Position numbers and translations under genes: made by a program
Shown: positions 13,346-23,592 of the stretch, piece after piece
Layout of the letters: each line of letters opens with the position of its first letter
Numbering within the stretch: position 1 is the first letter of the stretch
Virus record (IMG/VR): IMGVR_UViG_3300044638_001982
Coordinates: 1 to 25,719 of that record
Length of the DNA stretch: 25,719 bases
DNA from: a virus
Direction: 5' to 3' (one strand)
The notes under the pieces: generated by a model
What the model was told of the DNA's origin: nothing
Seen by the model: only the letters and a program-made list of their open reading frames with translations
The model's database searches: none

Positions 13346-14259
13346 GTGGTGAACATTCCGGTGGGCGGGAAGGTGGCGGTGTCTGGGAACGGCTGGCGCC
13401 AGAAAACGCAGGAGGCGTGCGAAGTCTGTCCGCTCGGCGGGGCGGTCGGCGTGCCGCCGCAGGTGTCGGCCTTTGCAGACTTGACCACCTCGCCGTTCTC
13501 TGCGCTCTTCTTCGCGATCTGTCGCAGGTGAAACTTCTCGTCGTAGGCGAACGAGTACACGATCTCGTAGGTGCTGCTGCCGACGCGGCTGATGTTGCAG
13601 CCCGTGAAGAGCAGGGTGTGTGCCGCGAACGAGTAAGGGCCGATTGAGTACGAGTTGTTGTTGCGCCTGTTGATGAAGCCGAGCGGGGGGGTGGGACGGC
13701 CTACGATCACGTTGCGAACGGTCACGCGCGCGACGTTGTTGAAGCTGCTGATCGGTTCGCCGCCGCTGTCCACCTTTGTGCCGCCGATGTCGGTGTCGGC
13801 CGGCGTTGACTTGTCTGCAGGAGCCGTCGCGCCGGAGCGCCAGATATCCACCGGCTCGCCCTGGACGCTGTACTCGATCGCGATGAAGGACGGCTGCCCC
13901 TCGTTGCGCGCATCGACTGGCGTGATCGTGCCAGTACTGTCGCCCACGCTGGAGTCGAACTGCACGACCGCCTCCCAGACATAGCCGCCGTCGTCTACCT
14001 GCTTCAGGTCGAACCCGACCTGACGAAGGCGGCCGGAGTAGTACGTCCCGGACCCGTCAAGTTCTGCCAGCGCGCCACTGCTGCCGCCCATGTCAGACGG
14101 GCCAAGCTTCGCGTTCACGTTCGTGTCTTCCATGATCTGCCCGGCGTTCAGCTGCGCGCCGGCATCGTCTCGGATGACGTATGCGCTTGACGCTTGCCAC
14201 TTGCCGCGGTCGAAGGTGACGCTCGTGCCGTTGGGCTTCTGGGCAATCGTGATAGCCAT
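13342..14259 (-). CDS. Uncharacterised tail protein after the tape measure (305 aa)
   Basis: A 305-residue, beta-rich protein directly after the tape-measure-like gene, joined by TGATG with AGGAG upstream. Recognisable pieces are DIGGTKVDSGGEPISSF (157-173), which resembles an IGG...D..G.P motif I associate with uncharacterised phage-like proteins, and LLFTGCNISRVG (216-227) then YEIVYSFAYDEKFHLRQ (231-247). The last 40 residues are Pro/Thr-rich (TPTAPPSGQTS) and end FPPTGMFTT. No distal-tail or tail-tip-lysozyme motif is visible. By position it should cap the tail or form the tip. The function is inferred. Confidence 0.6.
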   Translation of the reverse strand: MAITIAQKPNGTSVTFDRGKWQASSAYVIRDDAGAQLNAGQIMEDTNVNAKLGPSDMGGSSGALAELDGSGTYYSGRLRQVGFDLKQVDDGGYVWEAVVQFDSSVGDSTGTITPVDARNEGQPSFIAIEYSVQGEPVDIWRSGATAPADKSTPADTDIGGTKVDSGGEPISSFNNVARVTVRNVIVGRPTPPLGFINRRNNNSYSIGPYSFAAHTLLFTGCNISRVGSSTYEIVYSFAYDEKFHLRQIAKKSAENGEVVKSAKADTCGGTPTAPPSGQTSHASCVFWRQPFPDTATFPPTGMFTT

Positions 14260-15272
14260 CAGGGTGCTCCTGCTGCGAGGGGTGCGGTGTTCTTTACGAT
14301 CTGCTGCAGGGCGAGTTTCATGGCTTCCTGCGTGGGCATCATGCGCTCAAGGCTGAAGGAGGTCATGCCCGCCACCTTGACGCCGCCGATGGCTGTGCTG
14401 AGGCTCTCGGCGTTGCCGAAGTTCATCATCCCTGCGAGCCGAGTATTCGCCTCTTCTTGCAGCTGCCCCTGGCGCTGCTCCATCTCGGTCATCTTCTGAT
14501 CCCACGCATCGAAGTCGCTCAGCCAGTCCTTCATGTCCGCCTTGTCTTGCACGTCCTTCGCCAGCTTCGCGGTGATCGAATCGAACTTGGCCCGCACGTC
14601 TTCAAGCTGCGCAAGCTTCTCTTCGATGCTCATGCCCGTCTTGTTCTGCGCCTCGATCATTTCCTTGCGCAGCTTGTTCCATTCAATTTGCCGCTCGATT
14701 CCAATACGCTCTGATTCGCCGATGGCGTCCGTCAGTCGCTTCTGATTTTCAAGAGCCGTCAGAACTCCGTTGATCGAACTTTCTGCCTTTTGCGCATCTT
14801 CTGCCGCTCGTGCCTTTCGATCGTCATCCGCCTTCCTGGCTTCGATCATCTGCATTCGCCTAGCGTCGGCGGACTTCTGGGCATCTCGCTCATCCTGCTG
14901 CGACCTATCGAGCGCCATAGAAATGCCTGCGCCAAGTTCAAACGCCGCACCGATCAGCGGAATGCCCTTGACCACCTCTCCGACACTTTCGGCCACGCGA
15001 GAGAATGATCTCGCAAGACCATCCACTCGGCTGTAGTCCATTTGCTGGAGTTCTTTGCCGACGTTGCGAATCACCTCGTCGAGCGCATTCGCGCCAAATA
15101 GTCCGACGCCTGCGCCCAGGATCGCCTTTGAGTAGCTGTTGCCGGCCTTCTGCATGATGCGGCCGATCTGTCCAGACATGCTGTCCGTCCGGCGCACCAC
15201 CTTCTCGGTGGCCGCCATGTATTCGCCCGTCTCCAGCACCATGCGCGCGGTCAGAGATCCGATGACACCCAT
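14259..15272 (-). CDS. Short tape-measure-like protein
   Basis: A 337-residue protein starting at ATG 15272 (TGATG with the G-T frame). It has the mix expected of a tape measure: a helical N-terminus, two hydrophobic segments (about 49-66, YSKAILGAGVGLFG; 103-120, GIPLIGAAFELGAGISMA), and a long charged coiled coil (about 124-255). Location immediately after the G/G-T chaperones is diagnostic for the tape measure in long-tailed phages. It is unusually short: as an extended helix at 0.15 nm per residue it would give roughly 50 nm. Either the tail is very short or the protein is atypical. A frame extending upstream to 15290 is less likely. Confidence 0.72.
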   Translation of the reverse strand: MGVIGSLTARMVLETGEYMAATEKVVRRTDSMSGQIGRIMQKAGNSYSKAILGAGVGLFGANALDEVIRNVGKELQQMDYSRVDGLARSFSRVAESVGEVVKGIPLIGAAFELGAGISMALDRSQQDERDAQKSADARRMQMIEARKADDDRKARAAEDAQKAESSINGVLTALENQKRLTDAIGESERIGIERQIEWNKLRKEMIEAQNKTGMSIEEKLAQLEDVRAKFDSITAKLAKDVQDKADMKDWLSDFDAWDQKMTEMEQRQGQLQEEANTRLAGMMNFGNAESLSTAIGGVKVAGMTSFSLERMMPTQEAMKLALQQIVKNTAPLAAGAP

Positions 15273-15607
15273 CACACACCGTCCTTCCATTTGGGCTTGA
15301 CGCCGAACGCCTGGGCCAGCATTTCAGCCATCGCTTCGGGAGACTGCTTCGGGCGCTCCACGAACGGCATGAAGTCCTGCGGCTTGAACGCCGCGGCCTT
15401 GCTGGATCGGTGGCAGTTGGCGACCGTGGCCGCGACAATCCCAGAGCGCAGGTCTGCGCGCTGGTTGCCGATCGGGCCGTCGATGGCCTCAAACGCCTGC
15501 CACTCAGTCAGTTCTCTGCCGCTCAAAGTCTCCTCCAGTTCAGACACGGTCTTCCCGAGCGCCAGCGCCAGCCGAAACAGAAACTGCCTCAGCGGGCGCT
15601 CTCGGAG
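15272..15607 (-). CDS. Tail assembly chaperone T extension (via -1 frameshift)
   Basis: The downstream portion of a G-T fusion. Entering the -1 frame at the slippery heptamer gives LRERPLRQFLFRLALALGKT, then VSELEETLSGRELTEWQAF, a clear match to the tail assembly protein T family (LALALGKTV.ELE.TLS.RELTEW, DUF4035-like). The part before the GTG at 15547 has no start of its own but belongs to the domain, which shows that it is read by frameshifting. The fusion would be about 224 residues. It helps wrap the tape measure for tube assembly and is not expected in the finished virion. Confidence 0.85.
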   Translation of the reverse strand, partial: LRERPLRQFLFRLALALGKTVSELEETLSGRELTEWQAFEAIDGPIGNQRADLRSGIVAATVANCHRSSKAAAFKPQDFMPFVERPKQSPEAMAEMLAQAFGVKPKWKDGV

Positions 15608-15945
15608 TTTTTTTCGATCGTTTCCTTGTCCTGCGACCCGAGGCCACTCAGCCGAGCCGCCACGTCGTAGAGCCCGTCGATCACCTGCGCCGGCAGTTCG
15701 CCGAGCAGCTCGATGTCTCCAGAGCCGAACAGCGGCTTGCCGTCGTCAAACAGGCACAGCGCCACAAGGGAGGCCCGCACGTTGCGCACGGTCTTGCCCT
15801 TGCTCTGGTAGATCCGCTGCTCCCACTCGTCGCGCCCGGCGGCGGTGAGGCCGCGTACTTCGACCTCACCGACGCCGGGGACATTTACGACCTCGCTGGG
15901 AACCGTTGCCTTGAGCCCGAGAAACTTGGTCTTCAGGTCGCTCAT
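15589..15945 (-). CDS. Tail assembly chaperone G
   Basis: A 118-residue protein directly after the tail-tube gene, with a pattern typical of G-type chaperones: VNVPGVGEVEVRGLTAAGRDEWE, RASLVALCLFDDGKPLFG, then DIELLGELPAQVIDGLYDVAARLSGL. It binds tape-measure protein during tail assembly (family knowledge). The 3' end carries the frameshift signal, so most ribosomes stop at 15589 and a minority continue into T. The last zero-frame residues after the slip are SESAR. Confidence 0.85.
   Translation of the reverse strand: MSDLKTKFLGLKATVPSEVVNVPGVGEVEVRGLTAAGRDEWEQRIYQSKGKTVRNVRASLVALCLFDDGKPLFGSGDIELLGELPAQVIDGLYDVAARLSGLGSQDKETIEKNSESAR
15607..15613 (-). promoter_or_regulatory. Programmed -1 frameshift site A AAA AAC
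   Basis: The minus strand reads gAA AAA AAC in the G frame (Glu111-Lys112-Asn113), placing the heptamer A AAA AAC exactly in the X XXY YYZ register required for -1 slippage. The -1 frame then stays open for 111 codons into the T domain. Twelve bases later lies the G stop codon. Confidence 0.9.
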
Positions 15946-15948
15946 GGA

Positions 15949-16365
15949 TCAGCCCAGGGTGACGGCGCCGGTGATCTTCATGGTGAACGACGCGGTGAGC
16001 GCCGAATCCATGCCAGCCTTGACCGAGAAGTCGGTCACGAAGCAGTTTCCAGAGGCGGTGTGCGTCGTGCCAGAAGCGCCGAATGTGAGCGCAAACGACT
16101 TGGCGGTTGGAGCGGTTGAGGCTGCGGTGTCGTCAAGCTGATCCCACAGGGCGCTGTGCGCGCTGAGGATGTTCACTTCCATCGAGATCGTGCCGCTGTC
16201 GATCAGGCCCGCGACGAACTTGCGATGACGGTCGGCGAGCGTGGTCACGTCGATCGTGTTCAGCTTGAGGCCGTCGATGTTCAGGCTGAGAACTTCGGCG
16301 ACTGCGACCGCGTTGAAGGTGATGGTGGTGCCGAACGTGGGCACCGCTGCGGTGATTCCTGGCAT
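15949..16365 (-). CDS. Major tail tube protein
   Basis: A 138-residue beta-rich protein: GTTITFNAVAVAEVLSLN, TIDVTTLADRHRKFVAGLIDSGTISMEVN, and an ending TASFTMKITGAVTLG. This is the layout of the TP901-1/lambda-V tail tube family, which polymerises into the tube around the tape measure. AGGAGGA lies seven bases before ATG 16365, the strongest ribosome-binding site in the structural block, as expected for an abundant protein. Position between the tail terminator and chaperone G supports the assignment. Confidence 0.85.
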   Translation of the reverse strand: MPGITAAVPTFGTTITFNAVAVAEVLSLNIDGLKLNTIDVTTLADRHRKFVAGLIDSGTISMEVNILSAHSALWDQLDDTAASTAPTAKSFALTFGASGTTHTASGNCFVTDFSVKAGMDSALTASFTMKITGAVTLG

Positions 16366-16385: not shown

Positions 16386-16847
16386 TCAAGGAACGCCACC
16401 ACCGGGCTCGGTGATGGTCGTGGGTGAAACGGAGCTGGAGCGGTACGTCGCTTCCAGCGTGACGCTTGTGATGTGAATGCCGGTCTCGGTGGCCTCGCTG
16501 CCCACGTCGTACTGGCTGGTGATCCCGGTCTCGCGGATCTCAAAGATCGTCACGCTCCGGGCTTGGCCGCTCGCGCCGTGCATCTTGACTCGCACGGCCT
16601 CCGCGATCTGGCGCGACACCTTCAGCGTCGAGGCGATGCAGTCCACCTCGACGGTGAACTTGCGCAGGCAGTCCGTGCGGCCGAAAGTCGGCGAGACGTT
16701 CGCATCCTGCCCCGTGGTGAGCACGATGGCGGGGAGCGTGGAGGTGTCGCGGAACGCGGTGAAGATGCGCGTGGAAACCAGATTGGTGACGCTGGTCGAT
16801 TGCGTCAGCGCATCTCGCACGGCTGCGACGATCGCCTGGCTGCTCAT
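16386..16847 (-). CDS. Tail terminator / completion protein (DUF3168-like)
   Basis: A 153-residue protein from ATG 16847 (overlap TGATG; a GTG three bases earlier is equally open). It has the DUF3168 pattern: an opening helix, VSTRIFTAFRDTSTLPAIVLTT, a FTVEVDCIAS strand, and a long helix KVSRQIAEAVRVKMHG. Members cap the tail tube and join it to the head connector. Order between the gp10-like gene and tail tube is the standard one. Confidence 0.75.
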   Translation of the reverse strand: MSSQAIVAAVRDALTQSTSVTNLVSTRIFTAFRDTSTLPAIVLTTGQDANVSPTFGRTDCLRKFTVEVDCIASTLKVSRQIAEAVRVKMHGASGQARSVTIFEIRETGITSQYDVGSEATETGIHITSVTLEATYRSSSVSPTTITEPGGGVP

Positions 16848-17401
16848 CACTTCACCCCCGCGCGCGCAGCGGCTTGCGCCACGGCCCGCTCAAATGCCGC
16901 CGGCATCTTCTGATTCAGCTGCGCCACGGCTCCATTCGCCCAGCGCTTCAGCATCAGCAGGCCCGCGCGCCAGCCGGTGTATTTGCGGGAGCCCTTGTAT
17001 CGGCCCTTCTCGATCAGGTGGATGCCAGGGCCGAACGCCTTGATGCGCAGGAAGAAGCCTTCCGACTTCTTCAGCTTGGCGACCTTGAAGCCGAAGCCTT
17101 CCTGCGTCAGCGTGCGCACGGCCAGTGCGCGAGAGAACCCGACGGGCAGACCCTGCTGCCGGCGTCGGCTCCACCAGCGGTGCTGCATCGCGCGCGTCAG
17201 GGATTCGTTGTCGTGCTTGCCCTTCTTTGCCTGGTAGTAGTGCATCAGCCCGTTGCGGGTAGGGCGGCCGATGTCCTCCAGAACTTCAAGGATCAGCGGC
17301 GCGAGGGTCTCTTCATTCAGCGAACGGATCGCCTCCTTGAGCTCGGGCATGCCCTCGATCAGGTACTTCTGCAGGTTTGACGTGCGGCCGGAGCGTGCCA
17401 T
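16847..17401 (-). CDS. HK97 gp10-like neck/tail protein
   Basis: A 184-residue basic protein from ATG 17401 (one-base TGATG overlap with the upstream stop). Helical N-terminal half (YLIEGMPELKEAIRSLNEETLAPLILEVLE), then GLMHYYQAKKGKHDN, a Trp-rich stretch, and a C-terminal segment of Lys/Arg and Ala. It occupies the slot of HK97-gp10-like proteins, thought to sit at the head-tail junction or be involved in tail completion. Similarity is weak by eye and the assignment rests mainly on synteny. It could instead be a minor tail protein of another family. Confidence 0.6.
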   Translation of the reverse strand: MARSGRTSNLQKYLIEGMPELKEAIRSLNEETLAPLILEVLEDIGRPTRNGLMHYYQAKKGKHDNESLTRAMQHRWWSRRRQQGLPVGFSRALAVRTLTQEGFGFKVAKLKKSEGFFLRIKAFGPGIHLIEKGRYKGSRKYTGWRAGLLMLKRWANGAVAQLNQKMPAAFERAVAQAAARAGVK

Positions 17402-17751
17402 CAGGTCACGATCTCCCGGCACATGAGGTCGAGGTACTGCCGGCGCTCCTGCCAGTCCACGACCGTCACGACCTCCCAAGTGCGCGAGATGGTGCCTTGC
17501 TCGTCGCTGACGGTGCGCAGTTGGCTGCGGTGGCTGACGGTGGGGTGCCAGCGCATGCGGATGCGGTGCGTCACCGTCTGATTCATCTGGCGGTGGTTCA
17601 TCTTCTCGTCTGCGCTCGCGTCGTTGATCGCGGCGAAGAGCACCGTGCCGCTGCCGGCGGCGTTCACGGTGCGCACGGGCTGACCGTACTCGTCGGTGCT
17701 GGTGGACGCGCCGAGCAGTTCGAGCGGGGTGCGCATGTAGCCCGGATTCAC
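17401..17751 (-). CDS. Head closure / head-tail adaptor protein
   Basis: A 116-residue protein from GTG 17751, chosen because it overlaps the upstream stop as GTGA and has GGGGGA seven bases before it; the internal ATG at 17736 lacks this. The pattern matches head-tail adaptors of the HK97-gp7/SPP1-gp16 type: PLELLG, a DEYGQPV loop, VLFAAIND, then strands with VTHRIRMRWHPTVSHRSQLR and a closing WEVVTVVDWQERRQYLDLMCRE. It forms the gate under the connector that retains packaged DNA. Confidence 0.78.
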   Translation of the reverse strand: MNPGYMRTPLELLGASTSTDEYGQPVRTVNAAGSGTVLFAAINDASADEKMNHRQMNQTVTHRIRMRWHPTVSHRSQLRTVSDEQGTISRTWEVVTVVDWQERRQYLDLMCREIVT

Positions 17752-18335
17752 TGATAGTCCCCCGAGTGGTACTGCACGATCAGGCGCTGCACCGTGAAGG
17801 GGATCTCGTTCACGATGTTGCCGATGTTCACGCTGCTGCGGTTGTCGTACAGGTGCGCAGCCTGCAGCAGCACGGCGTGGCGCAGGGCGGCGGGGATGTT
17901 GGCGGTGGCTGCGCCATAGCCCGCGGTGAAGTTCACGGTGACATCGAGCGCGCCAGTGCCCAGCGTGGCCGGCCAGGAGGAGGTGCTCTTCAGCACGACG
18001 CGGCCGATGTTGTCCACGCTGTAGGCGTGGTACTCGCTGCTCGCCAGCGTCTGCGTCGCGCCGGCGGTGTCGGTGTAGGTGATGCTGGAGACGCTCAGCC
18101 AGGGCGAGCGGGGCAGGATGATCTGCCCGGACGCTGGGAACTCCTCCAGCTGGTAGGAGAACGCCCGGGTGATCAGGGCACGCCGGGTCTCGTTCTCGAT
18201 GCACTGCGTGGCCGTGAGCACGAGCGTGGCGATGTATGCGTCGTCCTGCGCGTGATAGATACGCGCGTGCGTCTTCAGGTCGCTGGTGCTCACGGCCGCG
18301 GTAACTGCGCCTGCGTCGGTCAGGTTCGTCCTCAT
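17748..18335 (-). CDS. Head-tail connector protein (gp6/phiE125 gp8-like)
   Basis: A 195-residue protein with the gp6-like connector layout: helix DLKTHARIYHAQDDAYIATLV, ATQCIENETRRALITRAFSY, a beta domain (IILPRSPWLSVSSITYTD), FTAGYGAATANIPAALRHAVLLQAAHLYDNR, and a short tail. This family forms the ring below the portal. The ATG overlaps the 67-residue gene stop (ATGA). Length is typical for the phiE125 gp8 subgroup. Confidence 0.85.
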   Translation of the reverse strand: MRTNLTDAGAVTAAVSTSDLKTHARIYHAQDDAYIATLVLTATQCIENETRRALITRAFSYQLEEFPASGQIILPRSPWLSVSSITYTDTAGATQTLASSEYHAYSVDNIGRVVLKSTSSWPATLGTGALDVTVNFTAGYGAATANIPAALRHAVLLQAAHLYDNRSSVNIGNIVNEIPFTVQRLIVQYHSGDYQ

Positions 18336-18545: not shown

Positions 18546-18573
18546 CCGCCCGGGGGCTTTCGCCCCCGAGCGG
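18546..18573 (-). terminator. Strong GAAA-tetraloop hairpin after the capsid genes
   Basis: On the minus strand CCGCT-CGGGGGC, loop GAAA, GCCCCCG-GGCGG fold into a 12-pair stem with one G-U wobble. It lies 20 bases after the second capsid stop and before the next gene. No U-run follows, so it is more likely a partial attenuator or an mRNA 3'-end stabiliser that raises capsid output relative to downstream genes. Confidence 0.65.
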
Positions 18574-18592: not shown

Positions 18593-19897
18593 TCAGGTGG
18601 AGCTGGTGCTCAGGTAGCGGAAGGCGTTCACGTTGGTGACCGTGAAATCGACTCGGCTCTGCGCGTAGTAGCCACTTTGGTTGCTTTCCGCATAGCGCTC
18701 GCGCAGCACCTTGAGGGTGTAGCCGTTGCGCTCGCCGATCACGCCGTAATCGAACGCACCGATGCAAGCCAGCTTGGCGGGGTTGCTCGTGGTGCCAGCC
18801 GTTGCCACCGCATGCGACGCGTAGATCGGGATGCCCATGAAACGATCGGGCTCGCCGAGCACGCCGCTGGGCTGCCAGAAGTAGGTCGTGGTCGAGCTGC
18901 TGATGATCGCCAGCCTGCGCAGGTTCTGCAGGAAGGTGTCGCTGCAGACGATCGCGCAGCTGGGGTGCATGCGGTACTCGCGCGGCAGGCTGTAGACGAA
19001 CTCGATTACGTCAGCGATGGCGTAAGTCGGGCTGGCAGCCGTGCCACCAAAAGCCTTGCCGTCTGCGATCAGGTTCTGGCCGGTGCTGGTGTAGTTGAAC
19101 AGGCCGCGGGGGTTCGGTGCCGTTGCGCTTCCGGCGATGAAGCCGTTCTCCTCCACTTCCGCAAACTTGCGGGCGAACTGCTCGGTCAGGATCGACTCGA
19201 TCGAGAAGCCGGGGCCGCGAGCAGGGGCGTCTTCGATCAGTTCGTTCGAGACCAGCGCGAGGCCAGCCAGGCGACGAGGCTGCAGCGTGCGTGCAGCGAA
19301 GGTGCCAGTGCTGTCGCTTGCAGCTCCGGCCTCGGACAGGAACGATGCGCCGACCAGACCCGTTTCGATCGCGATCTCGCGCTTGAACGAGCCGAGCGGC
19401 ATCACCTTGCAGAGCTTGCGCATGATGCACATCTGCTGCAGGCGCTTGGTGAGCTCCTGGTGGAACTCAGTCGGTGGCAGAACATCGCCGGAGCCCGAGG
19501 TGCCCTCGGACAGGGCGCGCATTTCGGCCACGGGGGTGTGCTCGCCACGCTTCAGGTAGGTCGCGTAGGCGTTCTCGTACTCGTTGCTGCAGCGGAAGTC
19601 GCCGAAACGCGGGGCGCGCTGCGCGGTCTCGCGAGCAGCGGGAGCGCGACGCACTTCGGGCGCGTCCGGGCCCACGTCAACGAAGCCCGCGTCCTTGTCC
19701 TTCGCGGCGAGGCCCATCAGCGCGTGGTTGCGCTCGATCTGGCTCTGCACGCTGCGGTACTCGGCGTTCAGCGCGTCGAACTTGGCAGTGTCCTCGGCGC
19801 TCATGTCGCCGCCGTTGGCGTTGGCCGCCTCGATCATGTTCTGCATGGCGCGGTAGCGGGCGTCGTTGCCCTCGCGCAGTTCCTTGTAACCCTTCAT
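18593..19897 (-). CDS. HK97-fold major capsid protein with delta domain
   Basis: A 434-residue capsid protein. Residues 1-75 are a helical scaffold (delta) domain (DARYRAMQNMIEAANANGG, LNAEYRSVQSQIERNHALM), followed by a linker to about 105 where the prohead protease probably cuts. The HK97 core starts NEYENAYATYLKRG and includes EMRALSEGTSGSG (125-137), FAARTLQPRRLAGLALVSNELIEDA, and a closing RVDFTVTNVNAFRYL. AAAGGGA lies eight bases before the ATG. It follows another full capsid gene after 27 bases. By domain content this is the copy able to direct prohead assembly. Confidence 0.9.
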   Translation of the reverse strand: MKGYKELREGNDARYRAMQNMIEAANANGGDMSAEDTAKFDALNAEYRSVQSQIERNHALMGLAAKDKDAGFVDVGPDAPEVRRAPAARETAQRAPRFGDFRCSNEYENAYATYLKRGEHTPVAEMRALSEGTSGSGDVLPPTEFHQELTKRLQQMCIMRKLCKVMPLGSFKREIAIETGLVGASFLSEAGAASDSTGTFAARTLQPRRLAGLALVSNELIEDAPARGPGFSIESILTEQFARKFAEVEENGFIAGSATAPNPRGLFNYTSTGQNLIADGKAFGGTAASPTYAIADVIEFVYSLPREYRMHPSCAIVCSDTFLQNLRRLAIISSSTTTYFWQPSGVLGEPDRFMGIPIYASHAVATAGTTSNPAKLACIGAFDYGVIGERNGYTLKVLRERYAESNQSGYYAQSRVDFTVTNVNAFRYLSTSST

Positions 19898-19924
19898 GGT
19901 GTGTTCCCTTTCAATGTGCGGCGA

Positions 19925-21085
19925 TCAGCCGCGGTGGATTCCAAATGCCGCGTTCACGTCAGTCAGCGCTCCAGCGCATCGAACCGACACGATGAACGCG
20001 ACTTCGTTCGTGGCGGCGTAAGTTTCATTCAGTCGCGTCACGCTGATCCCGTTGCCAGCGAACGCGAGCAGGTAGCGCGACAGGTCAGCGGCAACGAGAA
20101 GCTGCTCTCCAGCCTGTGCTCCGTTAGTCGTGTTGAACTGTGCCGGGCTCATGTCGTAATGCATCCAGGGCCGACCCCAGATAATGCGATCGCCGACGCT
20201 CAGCATGTTCGAGGCCGATCCGGTGGTGCTGGAGCCGAATCCAGTGCCCACGCTGCTGCCAGTGTTTCGGTGCATGGTTGCGTTGAAAATCCAAGTCGCC
20301 CGCTCCCAATAGTGCGGGGCCAGTCGGTCGTCCATGCAAATGCCGAGGGTCGCGGAAAGAACTGCATTCGCGGTTCCCAAGTTGCCAGCGCTTGAACCGA
20401 GGATTGTGGTGGTCGTGGCACTGCGGCTGTAGCGCTTGAGCGTGTTGATGATGCCGTGACACGCATCGCTGCCCGCGGTGCTCGCCGTGCCGGCGGTCAC
20501 GCTGTCGTCCTTGTTGCCGAGCAGGATCTGCCGGCTCAGTTCGCGCAGAATGTCCTGCGAAGCCTGCTTGATGATGATGTTCTCGACGCTCGCGTCGCCC
20601 TGCGAAGCAGAATCCTCGACCAGTTCCCGCGAGGCGCGCACCATGACGCTGATGCGCTTCAGGGTGAATGTCGAGGTTCCGGTGCCAGTGTTGCTGGTGC
20701 CTGGCTGCGTGAATGACGGCACGGTCACCTGCGCCTGGCTGCCGGCTGTTGCGTCGATCAGGGTGCCAGCCTCGCCGGGGTTGTTCTGCACGCTAAATCC
20801 GCGCGGAGCGGAGCTGCTGCTGTTTGCTGGCGTGATGATCGGCACGCTGAAGGTGCCCGTCGAGGTGTAGACCTTGCTCACCTGTCCGACGATGCGGTCG
20901 TCGCCCATCTCGGCCATGAACATGTTCGAGTAGGTCGTCGGGAACAGAACGGCGCCGCCCGTCGCGCTGCCCTCGCTCAGTGCGCGAGCTTCGACGTCGG
21001 TCAGACCGTTGTGCCCGCGGGCGAGGTAGCGCGAGAACAGGCCGCGGTACTCCTCGCTGTTCCGATCCAGTTTGTTCTTCTCCAT
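19925..21085 (-). CDS. HK97-fold major capsid protein lacking a delta domain
   Basis: A 386-residue capsid paralogue. It begins almost at the mature N-arm (EEYRGLFSRYLARG, residues 11-24), then EARALSEGSATGG (32-44), aligning with residue 125 of the second capsid protein, so the ~90-residue scaffold domain is absent. Further matches are LKRISVMVRASRELVEDSAS, QILLGN, and a closing SVTRLNETYAATNEVAFIVS. GGAGAA is five bases before the ATG, and a 226-base leader precedes it. Divergence from the second copy is substantial, so this is not a recent duplication. It may co-assemble with it or form special capsomers. Confidence 0.88.
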   Translation of the reverse strand: MEKNKLDRNSEEYRGLFSRYLARGHNGLTDVEARALSEGSATGGAVLFPTTYSNMFMAEMGDDRIVGQVSKVYTSTGTFSVPIITPANSSSSAPRGFSVQNNPGEAGTLIDATAGSQAQVTVPSFTQPGTSNTGTGTSTFTLKRISVMVRASRELVEDSASQGDASVENIIIKQASQDILRELSRQILLGNKDDSVTAGTASTAGSDACHGIINTLKRYSRSATTTTILGSSAGNLGTANAVLSATLGICMDDRLAPHYWERATWIFNATMHRNTGSSVGTGFGSSTTGSASNMLSVGDRIIWGRPWMHYDMSPAQFNTTNGAQAGEQLLVAADLSRYLLAFAGNGISVTRLNETYAATNEVAFIVSVRCAGALTDVNAAFGIHRG

Positions 21086-21311: not shown

Positions 21312-21839
21312 TCAGCGCGGCGGCAGGAGCCGGATCGTGCGGCGCACCGCCTCGGCCTGCGCCTCGCGAGCCTCGACGCTGGTCGCCGGATTCGCGGGGA
21401 AGGTCACGAGGCTGATCTCCAGCAGGTCGGCGTCGAGGATGACGCGCACGGGCTTGTCCACGCCCTTCTCGTAGCGCTCCGCCCGCACCATGAAGCCGAA
21501 GCTGCACTGGCTCACCACGCCGCTCTCGACCAGGGCGTGGGCCTCGCGGGCCGTTGCCGTGTCGGGCAGGGTCGCCTCGAAGCCGAGGCCAGTGGCGTCG
21601 GTGAACAGGCGCAGGTTGCCGGCGCGCACCCGGGCGAGGGGCTTGCCAGTATCGTGGTTCCAGAGCAGGGCGATGTCGCCGGGCTCTTCCATCGAGCGCG
21701 CGAAGGCGTTGGGATCGACGCGCTCCATCTCGCGACCCATGTCGTAGGAGTCCCAGGTCACGGCGTAGCCGCGCACCTTCAGGTCGGCGGCGGGGGCGAG
21801 GGTGCCGAGGGCACGGGTTTCAGGCTTCGGGGTTGGCAT
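21312..21839 (-). CDS. Prohead maturation protease (HK97 gp4-like, U35/S78)
   Basis: A 175-residue serine protease that trims scaffold domains from the procapsid. The catalytic set is visible: His62 in ALLWNHD, Ser113 in SQCSFGF, and Glu141 in LLEISLVTFPANP. The opening RGYAVTWDSYDMGREMERVDPNAF is also characteristic. It overlaps the portal gene by 20 bases and precedes the capsid genes in canonical order. Its expected target is the delta domain of the second capsid protein, and perhaps the portal extension. Length is normal for the shorter members. Confidence 0.92.
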   Translation of the reverse strand: MPTPKPETRALGTLAPAADLKVRGYAVTWDSYDMGREMERVDPNAFARSMEEPGDIALLWNHDTGKPLARVRAGNLRLFTDATGLGFEATLPDTATAREAHALVESGVVSQCSFGFMVRAERYEKGVDKPVRVILDADLLEISLVTFPANPATSVEAREAQAEAVRRTIRLLPPR

Positions 21840-23592
21840 TGGTGGTGGTCTCCAGCAGGGGTGCGTGTGTGGTTTCGAGGCGCACCATCTCCAGCAGCTC
21901 GTCGGCCGCCAGTTGGGGAAGGTCGCGCCAGCCGTCGATAGATTCAGACAGGGTGCCGATGGCCGTCACCGCGCTGCGCAGGTGGCGGGCGTGTCGGAGC
22001 AGGGCGGCGTCGAGCGCCTTCGTGGCGCGCTCCTCGTTGCCTAGGAGGCCGCCCAGGGTGCGCACCGTCGCGCGCAGGTCGTCGTCGATGCAGTCGATGG
22101 GCGGCTCCCACTTGTCGAGCTTCGACTGCGTGCGCTGCTTCAGCAGGTAGTCCGACACCCGCTGCAGGTGGCGACGGAATGCGCCCTCCACGGCGGGGCG
22201 CACGGCTGCCATTGCAGACGCCGCCGCGCGTGCCGAGCTATACGCCTCGTCCTCCGCGTCGAGATCGACGCTAGGAGAGACCGCCTCGGGCTCCACGTCC
22301 ACAGACGGGTGCACGCCATCCGATGGCGCAGCGGGCTCGCTCGGCGCTGGAGCGGGCTGCCCGGGCGCCTCGGTGTTCATGGGCAGGCGAATACTGTCTC
22401 CACCCTCGACCGCCGGCAGACCTTCGCGCGCGCGGATCTCGTTCGGGGTCAGGATGCCGTTGGTGACGGCGACCGCGTAGGCGGCGTAGCGGGTGCTCAT
22501 GTCGGCCCGCAGCAGGCTGTCGAAATTGATCCGGGTGCAGTAGCGCTCGCCGCGCTGGAGGAGCTTGCGGCTCGCCTCCTGCTCCAGTCGAGCAGCCCAG
22601 CCGGCCAGCGTGTGCTTCACAAACTCGGCGTCGGCCTGCTCGTTCGAGGAGTACGACTGGCTCTCAGTGTCGCCGACCTTGTGCGCGGGCACGCCCATCG
22701 CCGCCGCGATCTGCTGGCGGCAGTACTTCCGCATCTCGATCAGCTCGTTGTCGCGGGCCGTCGGCGTGATGGGTTCATACGTCAGGCCATCTTCCAGCAC
22801 GGCGACGCGGCCGGCGCGGCTCGCGCCACCGTGCGCCGCCTGCCACGCATCGCGCAGGCGCTTGCTGGCCTCGGGGCTCAGGCGGCCCGGCATCTTCAGC
22901 ACGCCGCCGGGCACTGCGCCCTGAGCGAAGAAGCGCGTCACGAACTCCGTGACCTCCAGCTCCAGCCCGATCAGGTCGCGCATCTGGTGGATGAAGGGCA
23001 CGCCGAGCATGCCCTCGAACGTGGTCGGCCCGACGAGGTGAAACATGTCGTAGCCGCGGAAGCGACGCATGGCCTTCTCTTCGTTCTTGCCCGTGTACTT
23101 GCCCGTCCACACCTGGTAGTAGGGCTGGTTGTCGCCGTCGCGGTACATGGCGACGTAGTCGCTGCGCAGGGGCTCCAGCGCGACCGGGCGGCCCGCCTTG
23201 TCGCGGTGGATGTAGGCGTAAAAGTTTCCCGTCAGCAGCGCCGAGGTGAGCGCCATCTCGCGCCACTGGATCGCGCCGATGTCGTCTGACGCCTCGTAGT
23301 TGAGCAGGTTGTAGAGCGGGTGCTCGCTGTCCGCGACCTTGCCCTCGGGCGTCTCGCGCAGCACCTGCCAGTCGAGGCGGCTGATGCTGCTGGCGATCAG
23401 GCGCACGCACGCGAACACGGTCGGCGCTTCGAGCGCGCGTGCCGGCGTGATGCTCTCGCCCGTGTAGGAGTACGACTGCACATACGACTGCACGCTGCCG
23501 CTCGTCGGCTGTCCGATCGGCACGGTGTCCTCGAAGTCGGAGCGCGGTGGGGTCGGGCCGAGGTATCGGCGCAGGATGTCGATCAAAGCCAT
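21820..23592 (-). CDS. HK97-type portal protein with C-terminal extension
   Basis: A 590-residue portal protein. I chose ATG 23592 because AAAGGA lies eight bases upstream and it overlaps the terminase stop; a longer open frame to 24051 is a shadow. The HK97 portal core spans about 1-410: SYTGESITPARALEAPTVFACVRLIASSISRL, NFYAYIHRDKAGRPVALEPL, QQIAAAMGVPAHKVGD, and TNGILTPNEIRAREGLP. A Pro-rich linker with two PSVD units (429-443) leads to an extra helical domain of about 140 residues, which usual portals lack. It forms the dodecameric DNA channel at one capsid vertex. The extension may aid assembly or be cleaved. Confidence 0.92.
   Translation of the reverse strand: MALIDILRRYLGPTPPRSDFEDTVPIGQPTSGSVQSYVQSYSYTGESITPARALEAPTVFACVRLIASSISRLDWQVLRETPEGKVADSEHPLYNLLNYEASDDIGAIQWREMALTSALLTGNFYAYIHRDKAGRPVALEPLRSDYVAMYRDGDNQPYYQVWTGKYTGKNEEKAMRRFRGYDMFHLVGPTTFEGMLGVPFIHQMRDLIGLELEVTEFVTRFFAQGAVPGGVLKMPGRLSPEASKRLRDAWQAAHGGASRAGRVAVLEDGLTYEPITPTARDNELIEMRKYCRQQIAAAMGVPAHKVGDTESQSYSSNEQADAEFVKHTLAGWAARLEQEASRKLLQRGERYCTRINFDSLLRADMSTRYAAYAVAVTNGILTPNEIRAREGLPAVEGGDSIRLPMNTEAPGQPAPAPSEPAAPSDGVHPSVDVEPEAVSPSVDLDAEDEAYSSARAAASAMAAVRPAVEGAFRRHLQRVSDYLLKQRTQSKLDKWEPPIDCIDDDLRATVRTLGGLLGNEERATKALDAALLRHARHLRSAVTAIGTLSESIDGWRDLPQLAADELLEMVRLETTHAPLLETTTNANPEA

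Follow-up and report, generated by a model that had tools for sequence, protein, structure and literature searches.

Nearly all HK97-fold shells build both their pentamers and their hexamers from one protein. The locus examined here raises the question of how a phage head might be made with two adjacent capsid genes of the HK97 family, only one of which encodes a delta domain. A first-pass annotation, made from the sequence alone, had placed two tandem capsid genes at positions 18593-21085, and both open reading frames were found there on the minus strand. It had further suggested that the two products form either a mixed shell, in which one scaffolds the other in trans, or alternative capsids.

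Layout of the head module

The window, by which we mean the whole stretch of DNA that was analyzed, is an IMG/VR virus record of 25,719 bases whose head module is coded on the minus strand. The module begins with the small terminase, the large terminase, the portal protein (21820..23511, minus strand, start approximate; Pfam PF04860, 3.3e-95) and a prohead protease of the peptidase S78 family (21312..21839, minus strand; PF04586, 4.6e-41). These are followed by the gene for MCP1, a second HK97-family capsid protein of 386 residues without a delta domain (19925..21085, minus strand), and that for MCP2, a canonical HK97-type capsid protein of 434 residues with a delta domain (18593..19897, minus strand). 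Next come a 67-residue open reading frame, a head-tail connector (17748..18335, minus strand; PF05135, 1.4e-10; PHROG 442, 1.8e-26), a head completion protein, a tail terminator and the major tail protein. The intergenic gap between the MCP1 and MCP2 genes is 27 nt, a likely ribosome-binding site precedes each, and no third capsid gene copy was found in the window.

Directly 3' of the MCP2 gene lies a perfect hairpin, CGGGGGC-GAAA-GCCCCCG (18551..18568, minus strand). When 66 loci were surveyed, hairpins of at least 7 bp lying no more than 90 nt 3' of MCP2 were present in 42, versus 7 of 225 control windows taken at portal genes. The element suggests the end of the capsid transcript or a stabilizer of the mRNA.

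The stretch that separates the major tail protein from the integrase (10324-15949) has no long tape-measure gene. The largest open reading frames there encode 343 and 305 residues, neither with a PHROG match, and the tail of this phage may be very short or of an unfamiliar type. A tyrosine integrase is encoded at 8948-10324 (Pfam, 4.3e-15), and the phage is thus probably temperate.

Family assignment and N-terminal difference of MCP1 and MCP2

The Pfam family Phage_capsid (PF05065) matched MCP2 at 1.9e-41 over residues 137-429 (model positions 1-278 of 280), and in a PDB profile search the best solved relative of MCP2 was the RcGTA capsid protein (4e-36). The same family matched MCP1 at 1.7e-15 over residues 44-379 (model positions 1-274 of 280) and scored above the cut-off in eight diverse MCP1s as well. 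The PHROG 'major head protein' was matched by both proteins, and profile-profile comparison with hhalign paired MCP1 residues 8-379 with MCP2 residues 102-425 at 99.6% probability (E 1.7e-24, 24% identity). With PF05065 covered over practically the whole model and this pairing beside it, the sequence profiles bear out the first-pass view that both are full HK97-family proteins. Because the pairing takes in MCP1 from residue 8 to residue 379, the difference between the two proteins is N-terminal.

A PDB profile search with the MCP1 alignment gave no match, nor did a search of INPHARED phages with three MCP1 queries. The AlphaFold model of MCP1 (pLDDT 42, from an alignment of only 18 rows) gave weak Foldseek matches, with HK97-fold shells at the top of the PDB matches listed (best E 8e-5), so that the fold proposed for MCP1 is drawn from sequence profiles together with these weak matches. 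The predicted structure of MCP2 had a pLDDT of 55 from an alignment of only 13 rows, and HK97-fold shells were again the top PDB matches listed (best E 1.1e-8).

The propeptide or delta domain of MCP2, delimited from the model and from the site position in relatives, comprises residues 1-127 and ends at R127|A128 (19517..19897, minus strand). In the predicted structure it contains long helices at residues 4-27 and 34-72, with a block of pLDDT 65-85 up to residue 60; two modeled long helices within residues 1 to about 72 are as expected for a delta domain. MCP2 also carries a signature insertion, E-DAPARGPGFS (19202..19234, minus strand), located before the long P-domain helix and invariant in the MCP2 alignment. 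The form common to MCP2s is [ED]DAPxRGxGF, and it is not found in single-capsid relatives.

By homology, MCP1 has a leader of residues 1-34 (20984..21085, minus strand) that reaches to a predicted protease site, R34|A35-L-S-E-G. In the profile alignment this leader, MEKNKLDRNSEEYRGLFSRYLARGHNGLTDVEAR, is the counterpart of the final part of the MCP2 propeptide. Residues R34, A35, L36 and S37 are invariant in the MCP1 alignment, and cleavage at R34|A35 is predicted. An overlooked longer start was considered for MCP1 and excluded by an in-frame stop just upstream of its ATG. The median number of residues preceding the predicted R|A site was 35 in 58 MCP1s versus 127 in 66 MCP2s, where the range was 121-168. 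The first-pass claim that only one protein has a delta domain thus holds, the domain being in MCP2 alone, and needs amending for MCP1, whose start is not the mature end, since some 34 propeptide residues and the site are kept. Self-scaffolding capsid proteins begin with a delta domain roughly 100 residues long, as does MCP2, whereas MCP1 has 34 residues before its predicted site. Judged by its sequence, MCP1 is not self-scaffolding yet stays in PF05065, because possession of a delta domain is the mark of the self-scaffolding type and not of the fold family.

Distribution of the capsid gene pair

IMG/VR was searched with each capsid protein and with the alignment of each. One contig can carry several locus ids (L numbers below), and pairs were therefore counted as distinct protein pairs. 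At least 82 distinct MCP1-MCP2 pairs, at least 66 of them complete, were recovered from many metagenomes, all in the same order. The order protease-MCP1-MCP2-connector was constant in all relatives whose contig reaches far enough, with both capsid genes on the same strand. Identity among the 45 pairs with flanking genes fell as low as 15% for MCP1 and 28% for MCP2. The first-pass annotation had named decay of one gene among related phages as an outcome that would speak against it; no decayed or broken MCP1 was present among the complete pairs. These comparisons indicate that the pair is ancient and that its order is kept in every relative covering the site.

A DNA-pattern scan for the MCP2 insertion [ED]DAPxRGxGF was run independently, which avoids the bias of an MCP1 query. 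Among the matches listed, each insertion-bearing gene with upstream sequence was directly preceded by MCP1. Two loci, L157 and L211, were considered as exceptions lacking MCP1 and were rejected as such: the gap encodes a highly divergent MCP1 that the MCP1 profile had overlooked. The L211 protein has a Pfam capsid match of 7.8e-14, and its L157 counterpart is a close relative.

In relatives free of the insertion (L076-L088 and four cultured phages, L234-L237), no second capsid gene was found; in cultured phage L234, the capsid gene is unannotated and on the sense strand. A genome scan for prophages with the capsid pair yielded single-capsid relatives only (L082-L088), and the MCP2 signature was absent from 289 scanned genomes belonging to the same class as L084. 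A search of the openly accessible literature gave no description of tandem capsid genes in phages of the HK97 type. The pair appears to mark an old, diverse lineage of small, uncultured phages whose head is apparently made from two versions of the shell protein, one with a built-in scaffold.

Two contigs called for separate inspection. In 3300045125_000050 (L040, L121, L167), frameshifts split MCP2 and the reading frame of TerL is likewise disrupted, a sign of an error-prone contig and not of decay in MCP2. In 3300042321_001003 (L242, L243; 27,717 bases), the final 120 bases recur near the start, from position 827 onward. Such a repeat suggests a circular assembly and a genome size near 26.8 kb, and an apparent third capsid copy at the end of the contig was set aside as terminal redundancy.

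A predicted protease site common to both proteins

The predicted maturation motif R|A-L-S is kept in MCP1 and MCP2, the window proteins both reading R|A-L-S-E-G, and the site is retained in most MCP1s. The linker that follows it is short in both proteins of one clade (e.g. L012, L047, L053, L123) and long in both elsewhere, and in L072 and L074, R-D replaces R-A in both. Such covariation of site and linker, taken as lineage-linked observations and not as independent events, suits a single protease that would cut MCP1 and MCP2 alike.

Origin and exchange of the two genes

In a maximum-likelihood tree built by a quick method, the MCP2s formed one group (SH-aLRT 99) beside the single capsid proteins of cultured phages. 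The true MCP1s stood apart from the MCP2s and from the single capsid proteins and were not sister to MCP2. The tree has long branches and unsure deep joins, and about 10 of its single-capsid rows are mislabeled as MCP1; it was used only for the grouping of MCP2s and their separation from true MCP1s. Because it sets the true MCP1s apart, MCP1 is, on this phylogeny, either an ancient paralogue or a gene acquired early on and not a young copy of MCP2, and recent duplication of MCP2 as its source is ruled out.

Selection on MCP1, measured among close relatives, is purifying: the median dN/dS is 0.26, and the value in the C-terminal part is 0.07. Its axial (A) domain (residues ~223-328; 20102..20419, minus strand; delimited by homology, dS and identity) behaves differently from its flanks. 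In this domain, taken as residues 226-335 for the comparison, dS was mostly 1.2-2.5, near saturation (the two nearest relatives excepted), compared with 0.02-0.37 in the C-terminal part. Near-saturated divergence beside nearly identical flanks indicates that phages swap this hypervariable part of MCP1 as a cassette. In the MCP2 axial domain of the same genomes dS was 0.08-0.44, except for L007 at 0.84. Over 33 main-clade pairs, with MCP1 and MCP2 domain limits set by homology, mean identity was 0.32 in the MCP1 axial domain versus 0.63-0.70 in other parts of MCP1. Codon bias was tried as a proxy for copy number and abandoned: C-ending codons were lower in MCP1 in 89% of loci, mostly in the swapped cassette, and this says little on copy number.

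The two mature proteins are also exchanged relative to each other. Between L033 and L037, MCP1 and the protease are identical and the delta domains 95% identical, with MCP2 bodies that are 51-66% identical; conversely, L125 and L128 share an identical mature MCP2, with mature MCP1 only 25-35% identical. Related MCP2 variants were seen again in other metagenomes (L035, L036, L055), which makes chimeric assembly unlikely. Identity of the protease correlated with that of the MCP1 leader (r 0.74) and the MCP2 delta domain (r 0.90) versus 0.32-0.51 for the mature parts of MCP1. By these measures, mature MCP1 and mature MCP2 reassort independently, and leader and delta domain track the protease; the leader-protease correlation may be plain linkage, as the genes are neighbors. 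The gp10-position gene (window 16847-17479) is another swapped module, occurring among otherwise near-identical relatives in two forms (~33% versus 94-100% identity).

Proposed architecture of the head

The reading we prefer, held tentatively and at a little short of even confidence, is that one head is made from two HK97-fold subunits. MCP2 would be the canonical subunit and the hexamer former, its delta domain (residues 1-127) serving as the internal scaffold that builds the prohead. The scaffold-free MCP1 would use its conserved N-arm, E-loop and P domain to join the lattice of the prohead and would make capsomers of its own, most likely the pentameric vertices (eleven), as T4 gp24 does. 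The S78 protease would then trim the MCP2 delta domain and the 34-residue MCP1 leader at like sites (R|A-L/I-S). If MCP1 is in the shell, scaffolding of MCP1 in trans by the MCP2 delta domain would be a natural consequence and is predicted.

Within one capsomer, the axial domains of neighbors pack on each other round the axis. The free change of this domain in MCP1 suggests that its capsomer neighbors would be of its own kind, and the swaps in L033/L037 and L125/L128, together with axial swapping in MCP1 only, suit separate, homomeric capsomers. Placement of these capsomers at the vertices is most likely by analogy with T4, the sequence itself being neutral between pentamer and hexamer. Of the earlier proposals, a pair acting in one shell survives as this two-subunit head, shared hexamers have become less likely in view of the same swaps and of axial change in MCP1 only, and alternative capsids have found no support.

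Relatives in the clade of L028 (including L063 and L064) bear an insert of about 80 residues in the E-loop region of MCP1 (L028 6708-7955). It is related to repeats of virion structural and tail fiber proteins (PHROG 701, 19630), and we count it as a sign that MCP1 may be exposed on the virion. The same clade has an extra gene between MCP2 and the connector (L028 9520-10851), whose 443-residue product matches PHROG tail family 5939 at 4.1e-59 and virion proteins weakly, and is possibly a head fiber or spike.

Mixed hexamers, with MCP1 and MCP2 at fixed or variable positions in the same capsomers and the MCP2 delta domains scaffolding in trans, are in our estimation unlikely. Both proteins have full folds, their genes are adjacent and always together, and co-assembly of two HK97-fold proteins by irregular tiling is known from a Family 2B encapsulin (PMC12407261). 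Entire mature bodies nevertheless reassort freely here, and the MCP1 axial domain is swapped while that of MCP2, with which it would have to pack, stays as it is.

Homomeric MCP1 capsomers might instead lie away from the vertices, for example as a set of hexamers, as prolate end caps or as a ring round the portal. This placement shares the evidence for separate capsomers, and the sequence is compatible with it. We judge it improbable because the T4 vertices are the sole precedent; to our knowledge, dedicated capsomers elsewhere than at vertices have no precedent in HK97-fold phages. About as improbable is a capsid-derived accessory with no role in the lattice, such as a decoration, a plug, a head-size factor or a decoy against capsid-sensing defenses. 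Fast evolution, the swapped axial cassette and the free exchange of MCP1 would suit such a looser, decoration-like role as well, but the whole fold, including parts of the N-arm, E-loop and P domain, is conserved under strong selection, and most MCP1s retain the predicted protease site.

Heads built from either protein alone, depending on conditions, would give a use to two complete capsid genes but are very unlikely. MCP1 has no scaffold domain, nor was one seen next to it; there was no sign of a switch or of independent regulation; and the genes, with 27 nt between them in the window, adjoin on one strand in all relatives, every genome having both side by side in one orientation. A recent duplicate in decay or an assembly artifact, for which only the frameshifted MCP2 of contig 3300045125_000050 (L040) could be cited, itself with a disturbed TerL frame, is already refuted by the at least 82 distinct pairs from many metagenomes, by the position of MCP1 in the tree and by the purifying selection upon it.

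Comparison with known systems

In every respect tested, MCP2 agrees with the capsid proteins of HK97 (gp5), RcGTA and Sfi21-like phages, and the order portal-protease-capsid-connector is theirs too. Those systems differ in having one capsid gene, as checked in four cultured relatives (L234-L237), and in lacking DAPxRGxGF.

For the two-subunit head we propose, the closest parallel is T4, which a 2025 paper singles out as the one virus known to give separate roles to two different HK97-fold proteins (PMC12407261). T4 gp24 forms the vertices, loses 10 residues where gp23 loses 65, and shares ~20% identity with gp23 (PMC9958956). As with gp23 and gp24, MCP1 and MCP2 are two shell proteins of low mutual identity with neighboring genes, and a short leader is paired with a long-leader partner (here 35 versus 127 residues ahead of the predicted site). 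In T4 one prohead protease cuts both proteins; here this is predicted from the shared motif. The systems differ in that MCP1 and MCP2 both belong to PF05065 and PHROG 10, not to the T4 capsid family. MCP1 matched only Phage_capsid and PHROG 10/17162, with no PDB sequence match, which places it outside the gp23/gp24 family, and it would work like gp24 by analogy and not as a family member. The scaffold here would be the delta domain of MCP2 itself, the shorter gene (MCP1) comes first, related contigs reach up to ~25-28 kb, and the window has an integrase.

In the two-component Family 2B encapsulin of Streptomyces lydicus, a single operon encodes two HK97-fold shell proteins, which have diagnostic motifs of their own and can occupy the same shell; mixed tiling was described for it in 2025 (PMC12407261). 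That system is a cargo compartment without protease, portal or terminase and has no delta asymmetry; MCP1-MCP2 lies among genes for terminase, portal, protease, connector and tail, which sets the locus apart from an encapsulin operon. Among membrane viruses, the Sphaerolipoviridae and relatives combine two major capsid proteins in a single shell, both of the unrelated jelly-roll fold.

It is conceivable, though we offer it as the more doubtful part of the proposal, that this lineage split its capsid independently of T4, into a hexamer protein that scaffolds itself and a vertex protein that has no scaffold and varies by cassette. If so, an exposed vertex could vary through cassettes passed from phage to phage with the rest of the shell untouched. 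A second, unrelated two-subunit lineage would be a compact natural experiment on the tasks required of the delta domain, on the number of subunits that need one, and on what decides between pentamer and hexamer, and its natural swaps, the same MCP1 with a different MCP2 and the reverse, would show which interfaces must match.
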